A DNA stretch of 8,168 bases from a bacterium (lineage in GTDB: Bacteria > B130-G9): positions 1 to 8,168 of the forward strand of contig JAGHCW010000186.1 in the NCBI GenBank assembly GCA_021160245.1, in the 5' to 3' direction. Below, piece by piece: positions 2,142 through 7,946 of this stretch (the stretch's first letter is position 1; each line of letters starts with the position of its first letter). The position numbers and the translations under genes are program-made. The notes under the pieces were generated by a model, which saw nothing but the letters and a program-made list of their open reading frames with translations, was not told where the DNA came from and made no database searches.

Positions 2142-4340
2142 ATGAGAGATTCCACGACTGAGGCTGACGCAAGAATCAACATCGATGATATGCTCCGGCG
2201 GGCCGGCTGGGATCCTGCAGACAAGCTTCAGGTGACGACTGAACAGGTATCATCCAGCGGCGGATATGCTGACTATGTCCTCCTCGCCGAGAATGGTCGC
2301 CCGCTTGCAATTATAGAGGCTAAGCGGTCTGCCATTCAACCATACTCGGCCAAACAACAGGCGCTTCCCTATGCACAGGAGATGAAGGCCCCATTCATTT
2401 TTCTCAGTAATGGGGAGCTTATCTACTTCTGGGATTACGCAAACGACGATGCCCGAATGGTCAATTCGTTCTTTTCAAGGCGTGATCTCGAACGACTCAA
2501 GGAGATGCGCTCGACACGGAAGGCCCTTGCCACCATTGACATCCCGGAGTATTACATCCGTCAAGACGAATCCAGAATCGTGCGCCCCTATCAGCGCGAG
2601 ACAATGCAGGCGCTTGACCATGCCTTTGAGCTCGGCAGACGCCACTTTTTAATGGAGCTCCCGACTGGGACTGGGAAGACCGATCTGATTTGTCTCTATT
2701 TGCGTCGGTTGTTCAAAGCGGGCTGGGTTGAGCGCGTTCTCTTTCTTGTTGATCGAGATCAGCTTGCCACGCAGGCTATAGGGGCGATACAGGACATCCT
2801 GACCGAATACAGCAGCTACTGGCTGCGCTCCGGCGTGGCGAGACAGGAGCAACAGATAACGGTCTGTTTGCTTCAGACGATGATCGGCAGATATCCCCAA
2901 TTCAGCAGTGGGTATTTCGATGTCGTGATCGCCGATGAGTGTCATCGGTCGATCTATGGAGCCTGGCAGACAGCGTTGACGCATTTCGATGCCTTCCATA
3001 TTGGTTTGACTGCCACACCAGCGGCATACATTGAGCGCAATACTTTTCAATTCTATCGATGCAAAAATGGGCAGCCGGATTTCTCTTTCCCTATTCAACA
3101 AGCGTTCGACGATGAATATCTTGTGCGCTATAAGTTCGCAACAGGCATCACGGTTCTTCTCGCCGGAGGGGCCGAGGTTGACGATGAGGAATATGACCCA
3201 CTTGAGTTCGAAAGAACATGGACCAATGAGGACACGAACCGCAAGATGATGGCTGAGTTTGACAGACTTGCTTGGGAGAATTATCGGGAGCTAGCATCCA
3301 AACAGAAGATCGGCCCGGGCAAGACGATCGTGTATGCCATCACGAAACAACATGCAGCACGCCTCGCATCCTATCTCAACGAGTTACATCCCGAGCGCAA
3401 CGGCCGATATGCTGAGATCATCACGAGCGACGTTGCCAATGCCGCCGACATCATACGGAAGTTCAAGAACGAGGACTATCCCCAGATTGCAGTGAGCGTT
3501 GGCATGTTGGATACCGGATTCGATTGCCGTGAAGTGCTTCACCTCGTTATGTGCCGTCGGGTCCGAAGCCCAATCCTATATCAGCAGATGCGCGGTCGCG
3601 GAACAAGGACAGCTCCGCACATCGGCAAGAGAGAGTTTGTGATCTACGACTTCTTTGGGAACCACGAATACTTCAATGACGACGATGAAGACATCTTCAC
3701 CAGGACAAGGGGTGGCAGCGCTCCGACTGTGCCGGAGAGACCCTCCAAGCCTCCGCGCGACTTAGTGGAGCTCGGGCTTGAGGATGAGTGGCTCAATGCC
3801 GTCAGATACATTGAGGTCGGTCAGGATGGTGAGAGAGTTGACAAGCGGGAATATGTCAGCAAATGGAAAGAGTCAATTGAGGACCTGGCAGCAGATGATT
3901 CCATAATCCAGAAGGTCCGCGATGACAGGCCGCTGCTGAAAGAAGAGGAAGAGAAGCTTCAGCAGCGTTTGAATAGCCCCGCAATGTATTTCAACGAGGA
4001 CAACCTGAGGCGCGCGTATGATAAGCCGGGTGGGAACTTCATCGACTTTATCAGGGCTGCCCTGGGGAAGCTGCGCATCAAGAGTCGCGAGGAGGAATTG
4101 ACAGAGAACTTCCGGGCCTGGCTCGTAACGAGGTCGTTGACGCTTGAGAAGGCGCAATACCTATCGCTACTGAAGAATCGAGGCATCGTTACTGGTAACA
4201 TAGAGCTCGGCGACCTGTTTGATCCGCCCCTTTCGGTTCTGGATGCAGCAGGTCAGGGGGTGGATCTCTTTGGCGAGAACGGCCTCAAGGAGATCATCGA
4301 GGACCTGAACGAATCGATCTTCCGCAGAAAGACGGCTTGA
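2142..4340 (+). CDS. hsdR: Type I restriction enzyme, R subunit (nuclease and ATP-dependent DNA translocase)
   Basis: HsdR cuts unmodified DNA after ATP-driven translocation by the R2M2S complex. The N-terminal nuclease domain (about 1-135) shows a PD-(D/E)xK core: D44 in GGYADYVLL and E59-A-K61 in IIEAKRSA. The SF2 motor follows, with Walker A PTGTGKT (174-180), the DECH box at 265-268, TAT within GLTATP (288-293), and motif VI QQMRGRGTR (481-489). The C-terminal part (about 570-730, with ENFRAWL at 655-661) resembles the EcoEI-type C-terminal domain that contacts the methylase. At 732 residues it is shorter than EcoKI or EcoR124I HsdR (over 1000) but close to compact EcoEI-like forms. All catalytic motifs are intact. 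The frame is closed by a TGA at 2136, so 2142 is the first possible ATG, and the conserved TEADARINIDDML start agrees. Its own ribosome site is weak (AGGGA, 2130-2134). It is the first gene of the hsd operon. Confidence 0.95.
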   Translation: MRDSTTEADARINIDDMLRRAGWDPADKLQVTTEQVSSSGGYADYVLLAENGRPLAIIEAKRSAIQPYSAKQQALPYAQEMKAPFIFLSNGELIYFWDYANDDARMVNSFFSRRDLERLKEMRSTRKALATIDIPEYYIRQDESRIVRPYQRETMQALDHAFELGRRHFLMELPTGTGKTDLICLYLRRLFKAGWVERVLFLVDRDQLATQAIGAIQDILTEYSSYWLRSGVARQEQQITVCLLQTMIGRYPQFSSGYFDVVIADECHRSIYGAWQTALTHFDAFHIGLTATPAAYIERNTFQFYRCKNGQPDFSFPIQQAFDDEYLVRYKFATGITVLLAGGAEVDDEEYDPLEFERTWTNEDTNRKMMAEFDRLAWENYRELASKQKIGPGKTIVYAITKQHAARLASYLNELHPERNGRYAEIITSDVANAADIIRKFKNEDYPQIAVSVGMLDTGFDCREVLHLVMCRRVRSPILYQQMRGRGTRTAPHIGKREFVIYDFFGNHEYFNDDDEDIFTRTRGGSAPTVPERPSKPPRDLVELGLEDEWLNAVRYIEVGQDGERVDKREYVSKWKESIEDLAADDSIIQKVRDDRPLLKEEEEKLQQRLNSPAMYFNEDNLRRAYDKPGGNFIDFIRAALGKLRIKSREEELTENFRAWLVTRSLTLEKAQYLSLLKNRGIVTGNIELGDLFDPPLSVLDAAGQGVDLFGENGLKEIIEDLNESIFRRKTA

Positions 4341-4350
4341 GGAGGCGCCA

Positions 4351-6015
4351 ATGGACCAAGACCTACGCGGAAGATTGAAACACATCACCGACGTTCTCTG
4401 GGCCGGCGGTGTTACCAATCCGGTGACGTATATCGAGCAGATATCGTATCTCATATTTCTCAAGCTGCTTGATGAGGAGGAATCCTCGCGTGAGCTGAAG
4501 GCTAGAATGATCGGCGACAAGACAGCCGGCAATGGGGTTTTACTTTTCCCGGGTCAGTCGAATCGGTATCGCTGGAGCAAGTGGAAGTTCAAGAGCGGCG
4601 CCGACTTAAGAAACTTCGTGCGCGACGAAGTCTTCCCCTACATGGCTTCGCTGCTCAAAGAGGAGCCTCAGATCGCCAGCTACTTCCGCGACGCCGTCCT
4701 CGAGATATTAGACCCAAACGTCCTCAAGCAGGTAATCGACGAGATCGACAAGATCGGCTTCAGCAAGCTCGGAACCGACGTGAAGGGCGATATCTTTGAA
4801 TATCTCCTGACGCATCTCGGCCAATCGGCCTTGAATGGCCAGTTCAGAACCCCTCGTCAGATACGGACAATGATGGTTGAGATGGTCGATCCTGATTTCG
4901 GGGACACCATCAGCGATCCAGCCTGTGGTACCGGAGGCTTCCTGATTGATGCAGTCGAATACATCCTCGCCAAGTACTCAACGGAACCGAAGGAGGTCCC
5001 TATCTATGGCGAGGAGTGGCTGGAGAAGCGCGACCAGACGCTTGAGGAGGCGAAAAGGCAGATCCCAACGCTGCAGACTTACCGAAAGGGATGTGGCGAC
5101 AGTATCCCCGACTGGGGTCAACTGGAGTATTCGATCTTCGGGACCGATGTCTCCCGGCAGATGATGCGCATCGCCATGATGAACCTCGTGCTGCATGGTA
5201 TTCGCCACGCCTCGGTCAAACGAGCAAATGCCCTCTCCGAGATCGGCGGCCTGACCGACGAGGATTTATATCGCAAATACAAGGTCGTTCTGTCGAACCC
5301 TCCCTTCGCCGGGGTTCTGCCAAAAGAATCGATCCGACGAGACCTGCCTACGAACTCAAAGAAGAGCGAGCTCTTATTTCTCGCGGTTATGATGGAGTCG
5401 CTCGCGCCCGGCGGCCAGTGCGCCGTTGTCGTGCCTGAAGGCCTACTCTTTGGCTCAACCAAGGCCCATGTCGAGATGAGGCGCAGATTGATTGAGGACT
5501 TTGACCTCAGGGCTGTCGTGTCGCTCCCGGCAGGTGTTTTCAGACCCTATGCAGGCGTTAAGACGGGAGTCCTGGTCTTTGCTAGACCCGTCAACACCGA
5601 TGAGACGCGAGATAGATCCGAGGACAAGGTATGGTTCTATGAGGTTCGCGCCGACGGCTATGATCCTGATAGGATTGCGGGCGGCGTTCGCCCTGAAACG
5701 CCCGGCCGCAATGACATCCCCGACCTCTTGAGGCACTGGAAGGCTTACAGGAACTCCAGGTTTACGGACCCGCCGGGTGTTGAGGCCAACGCTATGCTTC
5801 AAGCAGGCAGCGAAGAGCCTCGTTGCTGGTGGACAACGGCTAAGAAAGTCACTGAGAATGACTGCAACCTAGCCGCAGGAAGATACAAGCCTCGTGTGGC
5901 AGAGCCACCACCTGACGAGGAACCCGCCGATCTGATCCGTGAAACGCTGGCAATCGAGCGGGGAATAGCTAGTGGCTTGGAGAAACTACTCCGGCAAGTG
6001 GAGGCAGACGAATGA
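4351..6015 (+). CDS. hsdM: Type I restriction-modification DNA adenine methyltransferase, M subunit
   Basis: HsdM transfers a methyl group from S-adenosylmethionine to N6 of adenine in the target chosen by HsdS, marking self DNA, and is part of both the methylase and the restriction complex. The N-terminal helical domain is typical (LRGRLKHITDVLWAGGVTNP, 5-24, then YLIFLKLLDE). The catalytic domain has the SAM-binding motif I DPACGTGGFL (189-198) and the N6-adenine motif IV NPPF (316-319). The GQFRTPRQI stretch (163-171) before motif I is also a family hallmark. The 554 residues are a normal length and nothing is missing. AGGAGG (4340-4345) lies 5 nt before the ATG, and the gene begins 10 bp after hsdR. 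Its stop overlaps the hsdS start as ATGA, so M and S are probably translationally coupled. Confidence 0.96.
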   Translation: MDQDLRGRLKHITDVLWAGGVTNPVTYIEQISYLIFLKLLDEEESSRELKARMIGDKTAGNGVLLFPGQSNRYRWSKWKFKSGADLRNFVRDEVFPYMASLLKEEPQIASYFRDAVLEILDPNVLKQVIDEIDKIGFSKLGTDVKGDIFEYLLTHLGQSALNGQFRTPRQIRTMMVEMVDPDFGDTISDPACGTGGFLIDAVEYILAKYSTEPKEVPIYGEEWLEKRDQTLEEAKRQIPTLQTYRKGCGDSIPDWGQLEYSIFGTDVSRQMMRIAMMNLVLHGIRHASVKRANALSEIGGLTDEDLYRKYKVVLSNPPFAGVLPKESIRRDLPTNSKKSELLFLAVMMESLAPGGQCAVVVPEGLLFGSTKAHVEMRRRLIEDFDLRAVVSLPAGVFRPYAGVKTGVLVFARPVNTDETRDRSEDKVWFYEVRADGYDPDRIAGGVRPETPGRNDIPDLLRHWKAYRNSRFTDPPGVEANAMLQAGSEEPRCWWTTAKKVTENDCNLAAGRYKPRVAEPPPDEEPADLIRETLAIERGIASGLEKLLRQVEADE

Positions 6016-7946
6016 GGTCGCGCGTGATTAGGCTAGACAACCTCATAGAGTCGCTTGAATCCGGGTCCAGGCCACGCGGCGGAGCCATCGATGTTCTTGA
6101 AGGCGTGCCGAGCTTGGGGGCAGAGCATCTAAATAGCACAGGCTCTTTCTGCTTACAGAAGATAAAATACATCCCCGAAAAGCATTTTGCCATGATGAGG
6201 AGTGGTATTATCTATCGCAATGATATTCTGGTCGTCAAGGATGGCGCAACAACTGGGAAAACCAGCTTAGTGCGCGACGATTTCCCATTTGAACAAGCAG
6301 CCGTTAACGAGCACGTGTTTGTCGTTAGGGTAGCCCCCTCCAAAGCAGAGGCTAGATACGTATTCTACTACCTCTTTAGCAGGGCGGGTCAAACGCAGAT
6401 CATGAAAGATTTCCGCGGCGCGACGATTGGAGGAATTTCACGGCAGTTCCCTTCAGGTGTCGAGATCCCCCTCCCTTCTCTCTCTGAGCAGCGGCGGATA
6501 GTTAAGATACTGGACCAGGCGGATGCGCTGCGCAAGAAGCGTGCCGAGGCGGATGCGAGGGCCGCCCGTATTCTCCCCGCGCTCTTCTACAAGATGTTCG
6601 GCGATCCTGCGACGAATCCTATGGGGTGGCCTGTCATCCCCATCCGCCACCTTGTCGTACCTATTAAACGACGCGATCCCGCGGGACAACCGGATAATGC
6701 CTTCGTTTATGTCGATATAGCTGGAGTGGATGGTCCAACGGGTACTATCGTTGAGACAAAAAATCTACTCGGGGCCGAGGCGCCTAGCCGGGCAAGGCAG
6801 ATTATCCGCGAAAATGACGTCGTTATTTCGACAGTTCGCCCTTACCTCAGAGCCACGGCGCTGGTGCCTGAGCGTCTTGATGATCAAATTTGTAGCACTG
6901 GCTTCTGTGTCCTGCGCGCACGAAAAGGGCGTGGATTTGGTTTTCTATACGCGCTGTCACGTTTGCAGTGGTTCACCGAGCAACTTAATGCCCGCGCGCG
7001 AGGGGCTTCTTATCCTGCTGTAACCGACAGGGACATTCTCAATCTGGCAATACCGTGGCCTGACACATCAAATGCTCATGAAGCCTTTGACGCTCAGGTA
7101 GTCGGTGTCCTTGCTATGCGGCAAAAACGGAGCCATTCTGCTACCGCTCTCGAGAATCTCTTTGCTTCGCTCCTCCATCGCGCATTCACCGGCGAGTTGA
7201 CTGCTTCTTGGCGTGAGTCGCACATGAAGGAGCTCTTGGTTGAAATGGAGCAGCAGGCGAAGGCACTTGAGGCTGCGACCAGGACCGATGACGCAGCTCC
7301 GGAGGTGAGGCCTGAGCGACACGCGGGTTACGACATGTATCACAAGGCGGCACTGGCGGCCTATATCGTGGGACGTTGTCATAGTCCTAAATATCCGCTT
7401 GGCAGAGTCAGACTAGCCAAGCTGTTCTATCTCTTGCAGAAGAAGGCGGGGCTCGAGCTCACTAAATTATTTGCGAAGCGAGCCGCCGGGCCTCTGGATG
7501 ATCATATCCACAAGTTTCTGAATCTCGCTCAGAAGAAGAGGTGGCTGGTGCTAGAAAGGACCCGCCGCAACGTGAAGTCAGTTTCCCCGGGGCAGACCAT
7601 GCAAGAAGGGGTCGCAGAGGCGCGGAAGCTGCTAGGCGAGGCGCTGCCGGAAGTCAATGACATGCTCGATCAGATGAAGGGCTGGAGCACGGGCACCTTA
7701 GAGCGCTGGGCGACGGTATTGCATGCCGCCGAGGAACTCATCGGGGCCGGTGGGCAGCTGACTGATCGCAACGTAAAAAGGGCGATTGAGCAGGACCCCA
7801 CCTGGAGAAGCAAACTTAGTCGAGATGACTTCGCCAACGGTAAGCTCTCAGCGACACTGAGCGGACTCATCCGGCAGGGCTTTATCCGTCCGAAATGTGA
7901 TGGGGAGACAGACACGGTTACGAATCCGGAGAGAACGTCATGTTGA
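6012..7946 (+). CDS. hsdS: Type I specificity subunit HsdS with a C-terminal Panacea-like extension
   Basis: HsdS recognises the bipartite DNA target and scaffolds the complex. TRD1 spans about 1-155. The first conserved helical spacer (about 156-195) contains LPSLSEQRRIVKILDQADAL and ALFYKMFGDP. TRD2 is about 205-350, with the conserved STVRPYLR at 273-280. The second spacer (about 355-400) ends in ALENLFASLLHRAFTGELT, where ordinary HsdS proteins stop. Here the frame continues for about 240 residues: a charged linker (about 402-437), then a domain from 440 to about 628. Its GRVRLAKLFYLLQKKAGL (464-481) and KRAAGPLDDHIHK (489-501) resemble the KLQKLLYF and GP signatures of Panacea/DUF4065 domains; this match is from memory and unsearched. 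The total of 644 residues is well above the usual 400-450. The start overlaps the hsdM stop (ATGA), and the stop overlaps the next gene by 7 bp. The DNA target cannot be predicted by eye. Confidence 0.92.
   Translation: MRSRVIRLDNLIESLESGSRPRGGAIDVLEGVPSLGAEHLNSTGSFCLQKIKYIPEKHFAMMRSGIIYRNDILVVKDGATTGKTSLVRDDFPFEQAAVNEHVFVVRVAPSKAEARYVFYYLFSRAGQTQIMKDFRGATIGGISRQFPSGVEIPLPSLSEQRRIVKILDQADALRKKRAEADARAARILPALFYKMFGDPATNPMGWPVIPIRHLVVPIKRRDPAGQPDNAFVYVDIAGVDGPTGTIVETKNLLGAEAPSRARQIIRENDVVISTVRPYLRATALVPERLDDQICSTGFCVLRARKGRGFGFLYALSRLQWFTEQLNARARGASYPAVTDRDILNLAIPWPDTSNAHEAFDAQVVGVLAMRQKRSHSATALENLFASLLHRAFTGELTASWRESHMKELLVEMEQQAKALEAATRTDDAAPEVRPERHAGYDMYHKAALAAYIVGRCHSPKYPLGRVRLAKLFYLLQKKAGLELTKLFAKRAAGPLDDHIHKFLNLAQKKRWLVLERTRRNVKSVSPGQTMQEGVAEARKLLGEALPEVNDMLDQMKGWSTGTLERWATVLHAAEELIGAGGQLTDRNVKRAIEQDPTWRSKLSRDDFANGKLSATLSGLIRQGFIRPKCDGETDTVTNPERTSC

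Follow-up and report, generated by a model that had tools for sequence, protein, structure and literature searches.

A DarG C-terminal-domain-like extension on the specificity subunit of a type I restriction-modification system

The C-terminal domain of the antitoxin DarG is by itself able to bind and neutralise DarT (PMC7003065), which it blocks by ssDNA mimicry in the DarT site (PMC11481870). Panacea domains (SocA-like; PF13274, DUF4065) have a known antitoxin role as well: they neutralise many unrelated toxins, and a GPV motif has been described for them (PMC8832971). In the RptR-RMS-DarTG-M48 island of EPEC, DarG and a type I restriction-modification (RM) system occur together, with DarTG2 located between hsdS and hsdR, a junction proposed to be a hotspot where darTG and other genes of defence insert (PMC12255303). 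There, a whole DarG is encoded by a separate gene and accompanied by DarT, whereas in the locus described here a homologous domain is fused to HsdS. A description of an HsdS-DarG or HsdS-Panacea fusion was not found in the literature searched, which comprised few subscription papers.

The window, i.e. the whole stretch of DNA that was analyzed, is a contig of 8168 bases from a genome of 3.43 Mb (94.8% complete). It contains hsdR, hsdM and hsdS, followed by an AAA ATPase gene of which the initial 76 codons are present (Table 1). The specificity subunit is of type I, given its Methylase_S target recognition domain and the presence of HsdM and HsdR in the same operon. Because the hsdS and ATPase genes overlap by 7 bases (ATGTTGA, 7940-7946), they are probably co-translated. 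On the 5' side of the RM operon (777-1565) a protein of 262 aa is encoded with a weak match to the N-terminal part of ArdC (E 0.0025, below the cut-off); judging from this match, it is possibly an anti-restriction or plasmid-derived gene.

Table 1. Features of the window, with positions counted from its first base.
Feature	Position	Strand	Basis
hsdR, type I restriction subunit, 732 aa, EcoEI-type C terminus	2142..4340	+	Pfam ResIII, HSDR_N, EcoEI_R_C; PADLOC REase_I
hsdM, type I modification subunit, 554 aa	4351..6015	+	Pfam N6_Mtase, HsdM_N; PADLOC MTase_I
hsdS with C-terminal extra domain, 644 aa	6012..7946	+	open frame; Pfam Methylase_S; PADLOC Specificity_I
normal HsdS part, residues 1-419	6012..7268	+	alignment with the tail-less HsdS of L002 and L003, which end here
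linker, residues ~420-438	7269..7325	+	no counterpart in L002/L003; outside the domain alignment
DarG-C-terminal-domain-like (Panacea superfamily) domain, residues ~439-632	7326..7907	+	NCBIfam DarG, profile, profile-profile, fold of relative L092
RLAKLFYLLQ, conserved KL-x-[YF]-L helix motif of the tail family	7410..7439	+	family alignments
AAGPLD, conserved GP motif, aligned with the GP of DarG and Panacea	7482..7499	+	alignments; G-P invariant in all aligned members
AAA ATPase gene start (AAA_15/DUF3696-type), cut by the contig end	7940..8168	+	Pfam AAA_15

The original prediction held that the S subunit continues in frame past its normal end, which was placed at FTGELT (about residue 397), and that the continuation contains a compact domain of antitoxin type. 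Both the continuation and the domain are borne out, and hsdS is a single intact frame, but the end has to be moved: FTGELT does end at residue 397, yet the conserved HsdS end extends to residue ~419. The two closest operons are those of Geobacter sp. UBA6151 (L003) and the Terrimicrobiaceae STA_90 MAG (L002). Their HsdS proteins align with the window HsdS through TA(R/S)WREAHMKELLVEMEQQAK and then stop, terminating in ...EMEQQAK, and since they end there the extra part starts after residue ~419 and not after residue 397. The domain itself measures ~190 residues, and the span proposed for it earlier (7326-7895) was nearly right. The RLAKLFYLLQ and AAGP motifs that had been pointed out are present and, according to the family alignments, conserved in a genuine domain family.

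That the extra domain is real and beyond chance is confirmed with an HMM of 20 other tails, from which the window tail was left out. The window HsdS obtains 85.8 bits (E 2.4e-25 in the test set), against a best score of 7.3 bits for 2000 shuffled window tails, and the HsdS proteins of L002 and L003 do not match this HMM. There is no sign of a chimaeric join in the GC content of the tail (0.577, near the 0.53-0.56 in the rest of the operon) or in the overlap of hsdS with the ATPase gene.

The window tail is best described as DarG-C-terminal-domain-like, an assignment in which we have high confidence. It matches the NCBIfam DarG antitoxin model at residues 161-301 of 338, which is the C-terminal domain (E 4e-4); a Pfam search of the tail gave nothing meaningful. 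A profile of three non-DarG members (the window tail, the HsdS of L004 and the standalone protein of L005) was searched against 386 genomes and retrieved three DarG-type genes (L010-L012, E 6e-11 to 7e-9), together with an HsdM fusion (L008) and a type IIG-like fusion (L009). In L010 and L011 a macrodomain is combined with the tail and a DarT-like gene, recognised by eye, is situated directly 5' of the DarG-type gene; the macrodomain of L012 is partial. A standalone relative matches the DarG model of PADLOC at 1.9e-13. In profile-profile comparisons, the RM tails reach 98.9% with DarG C-terminal domains and 99.2% with small proteins paired to HD hydrolases.

The structure model of a relative points to the same family. 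For the tail of L092, an AlphaFold model based on just two sequences (pLDDT 65) has as its top PDB match 7yk3_B (Foldseek probability 0.99, E 0.016), which is M. tuberculosis DarG in complex with DarT. The Z-score of 8.8 over 142 residues is middling when taken alone and derives its weight from the agreement with the sequence evidence; the next matches are partial and winged-helix-like (Z at most 7.2, the latter over 67 residues), and the C-terminal half of the tail model resembles winged-helix domains. A mixed profile that includes two DarG rows (A2) also finds 7yk3_B as first PDB match (E 0.01). DarG was not among the PDB matches of a profile made from the non-DarG alignment A3, and the window tail's own model is poor (pLDDT 62) and has no PDB match. 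The tail thus shares with the DarG C-terminal domain of 7yk3 the profile similarity, the co-linear KL-x-Y-L and GP motifs and, by the model of a relative, the fold. Net charges are mixed, with +9 for the window tail and -10 to +14 for the others (acidic tails include L056, -10, and L069, -7), for which reason an acidic ssDNA mimic by overall charge was rejected.

Of the features of DarG, the window protein has the homologous C-terminal domain. In contrast to DarG, the domain is borne by HsdS: no Macro match is found in the window protein with Pfam, and the HsdS core takes the place of the N-terminal macrodomain. DarT (PF14487) was not found in the window genome, on account of which DarT was rejected as partner of the tail. 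Among the 20 genomes searched, DarT is absent from 18 (the window genome and 17 others), and the remaining two carry their own DarTG.

The tail had originally been likened to Panacea/DUF4065 proteins. This holds at the level of the superfamily, but as a family DarG is closer. Tails, DarG domains and HD partners together reach 91.4% (E 9e-7) in profile-profile comparison with 11 Panacea proteins, and the RM tails reach 82-91%. Decoy families stay at or below 5.3%, the top decoy being DarG macrodomains against DarG tails, aligned over a 21-residue edge only. Since DarG domains alone reach only 17% with Panacea, the link rests on the tails and the HD partners. The remote homology covers ~130 residues including the GP motif, as the AAGP of the tails aligns with the Panacea GP. 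The window tail does not match the Pfam Panacea model PF13274, and as a plain Panacea domain it was therefore rejected; the sister tails L060, L061 and L095 match SocA_Panacea at E 0.002-0.005, below the cut-off. Judged by these comparisons the tail family and Panacea share ancestry at superfamily level, with Panacea as a remoter cousin than DarG. Whereas Panacea is a known antitoxin, no adjacent toxin was recognised for the window tail: the gene next to hsdS encodes the ATPase, which is seen also without the tail.

As had been anticipated, similar tails already exist on other S subunits. We have seen 15 HsdS proteins with a tail, namely the window protein, L016 (cut), L092 (a contig from a viral collection) and 12 in one large phylum, where family members are found in 27 of 395 genomes. 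The domain is also carried by two HsdM proteins (L017, L059) and by one type IIG-like single-chain enzyme (L018). Complete R, M and S genes are present in 12 tailed-HsdS and 2 tailed-HsdM loci, with otherwise varied neighbours; the tailed RM loci span three HsdR classes, and hsdR is located directly 3' of the tailed hsdS in L092 and L095. Moreover, the C-terminal part of three PADLOC specificity models with long C termini (PDLC03196, PDLC03088 and PDLC03184) and of one HsdM model (PDLC03039) matches the tail domain. PADLOC names these only as specificity or methyltransferase subunits and leaves the tail domain undescribed; the tailed HsdS combines two known families, and the fusion is silently included in these models.

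The tail motifs are kept across very divergent tails, the window tail having 19-28% identity to the others. In the tree, RM and standalone tails make up one group (98/98), in which the window tail is a long branch. DarG domains form a group of their own (87/86), and a direct origin of the tails from DarG is accordingly not seen in the tree. The HsdM tail of L017 groups with the HsdS tail of L016 (99/93), which shows that one subunit has passed the domain to another; the HsdS tail of L074 falls on the DarG/HD side with a long branch. Scans of viral contigs with the window tail, L017, L018, A1 and A5 gave no relative, and those with A3 and A4 gave one contig (L092/L109). Plasmid searches yielded one standalone relative; with this protein as sole query none was found in phages. 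The best PHROGs match (E 0.008) is a family of unknown function.

Several loci have peculiarities of their own. The end of an hsdS gene, a DarT gene and a DarG gene are consecutive in L082 (1-2019), resembling the EPEC island, and judging from this gene order hsdS-DarTG adjacency could have fed the tail fusion. In L096 (8041-9966) hsdS is broken by one in-frame TAA ahead of the tail, while its relative L095 is intact; a natural split of the tail gene in trans (L060/L096) was rejected, as this TAA is inside the HsdS part. The tailed hsdS of L016 (2203-2913) is interrupted, with a transposase-like gene upstream and a TAG inside the tail. Fragments of a PHP-type ATPase lie beside it, and a PHP-type ATPase gene lies beside the tailed hsdS of L106. 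An HD-domain phosphohydrolase is found beside a small standalone tail-family protein in L022, L047, L081, L084, L085, L089 and L091, and this pair of HD enzyme and antitoxin-like protein occurs in several phyla. Other standalone relatives directly follow a weakly sigma-70-like gene (L005, 7058-8543; L057, 1501-2830; L058, 1501-3147), and are possibly regulators of these loci. A multiubiquitin gene is near the standalone relative in L005 and L058, the former locus also having ThiF and the latter a caspase-like gene; L108 (10471-11187) has Pfam Multi_ubiq and Prok-E2_E.

The two closest operons have the gene order R, M, S, ATPase and are of the same operon type and ATPase family as the window, but unlike the window their HsdS is tail-less. 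In L002 a DitA-like gene (8080-9558; PADLOC E 3e-59) is located between the hsdS and ATPase genes, from which it follows that this junction accepts insertions. In both operons (L002, 9555-12303; L003, 8341-10897) the gene next after that of the ATPase (AAA_15/AAA_21; DUF3696-like at its end in L003) encodes ~300 aa and has no Pfam or PADLOC match. The ATPase and this protein may be an effector pair linked to the RM type; in the window, the contig stops ahead of the position of the ~300-aa gene.

We propose that the tail belongs to a mobile kind of protein-binding domain, known from studies of the toxin-binding C-terminal half of DarG, and that a copy of this domain became fused to HsdS directly behind the conserved end of the S subunit. 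Here it would grip and regulate a nucleic-acid-handling enzyme of its own RM complex, either HsdR or HsdM, similarly to the way in which the C-terminal domain of DarG obstructs the DNA-binding site on DarT. By this analogy the tail would be a partner-binding, inhibitor-type module that acts in cis within the RM complex, a tentative preference that falls just short of being probable; we infer each of its three elements (partner binding, a partner within the complex and an inhibitory effect). A partner inside the complex is the simplest choice because R, M and S are complete, other neighbours vary, hsdR follows directly in L092 and L095, and DarT is absent. That HsdM and a single-chain type IIG-like enzyme carry the domain too also speaks for it. 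On the other hand, tails occur with three HsdR classes, so that one fixed surface of contact does not suggest itself, the mixed overall charges give no indication of ssDNA mimicry, the winged-helix-like C-terminal half makes DNA binding possible, and the window tail is divergent and its own model poor.

Instead of acting in cis, the tail might be an antitoxin in trans, holding a separate toxic effector inactive while the RM complex remains intact. EcoprrI, which holds the nuclease PrrC inactive, is a precedent. Varied accessory genes near many tailed loci (by eye, including DUF262-like, KAP-like and PHP-ATPase-like ones) are consistent with this, as are the membership of the tail family in an antitoxin superfamily, the many unrelated toxins neutralised by Panacea (PMC8832971) and the position of DarTG beside hsdS in EPEC (PMC12255303) and L082. 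Since Panacea-type domains swap partners freely, the effector could even differ from tail to tail, with its gene adjacent or at another site. However, tailed loci have no constant neighbour, hsdR follows the tailed hsdS directly in L092 and L095, and among the 20 genomes searched DarT is restricted to the two with their own DarTG, which leaves the antitoxin in trans as a real but minor possibility. In a more general and unlikely form, type I (and some type IIG) RM complexes would double as antitoxins through a DarG/Panacea-type domain on HsdS or HsdM that checks a lethal activity, and a phage protein blocking or breaking the complex would trigger abortive infection. It is rather unlikely that the tail serves as an extra module for binding DNA or RNA, altering how the RM complex is seated on DNA, without a role as inhibitor: the winged-helix-like half, the positive charge of the window tail and the DNA-binding nature of the carriers argue for such a module, but several tails are acidic and the only solved member of the family found, the DarG of 7yk3, binds a protein.

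According to the original prediction the tail recruits or restrains the neighbouring ATPase. The overlap of both genes with probable co-translation fits this model, as do ATPases of other kinds near the tailed gene in four loci (L016, L100, L103 and L106). Yet an ATPase 74% identical to that of the window (over the part present) follows the tail-less hsdS of L003, with a relative after that of L002, and no relative (E 1e-6) was found in the stretches around 20 other tailed or standalone loci (mostly ~8-9 kb per side, shorter at contig ends for L016, L106 and some others). A genome-wide search gave weak relatives in G787 and G773, two genomes with tails, where these lie at a distance or on a different contig. 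Being present after tail-less HsdS and not found around the other tailed loci covered, the ATPase goes with the RM operon type and not with the tail; on this context the partnership was rejected, and we consider it very improbable. The other tails surveyed have no such ATPase in the stretches covered, an outcome that the original prediction had itself named as one that would refute it, and that in part does so. Finally, a functionless passenger, acquired by gene fusion at a recombination hotspot beside hsdS, would agree with the insertion hotspot proposed for the hsdS-hsdR junction (PMC12255303), the tail-less sister operons (L002, L003) and the stop ahead of the tail in L096. A mere passenger is extremely unlikely, however, because the motifs are conserved even between very divergent tails and the domain recurs on HsdS, HsdM and IIG enzymes, with several HsdR classes.

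Overall, a shared domain that is not named in annotation libraries links RM systems to the DarTG and Panacea families of defence. A tail that controls the RM complex would make for a regulator built into type I restriction, and a tail that holds a toxin would mean that RM complexes are guarded.
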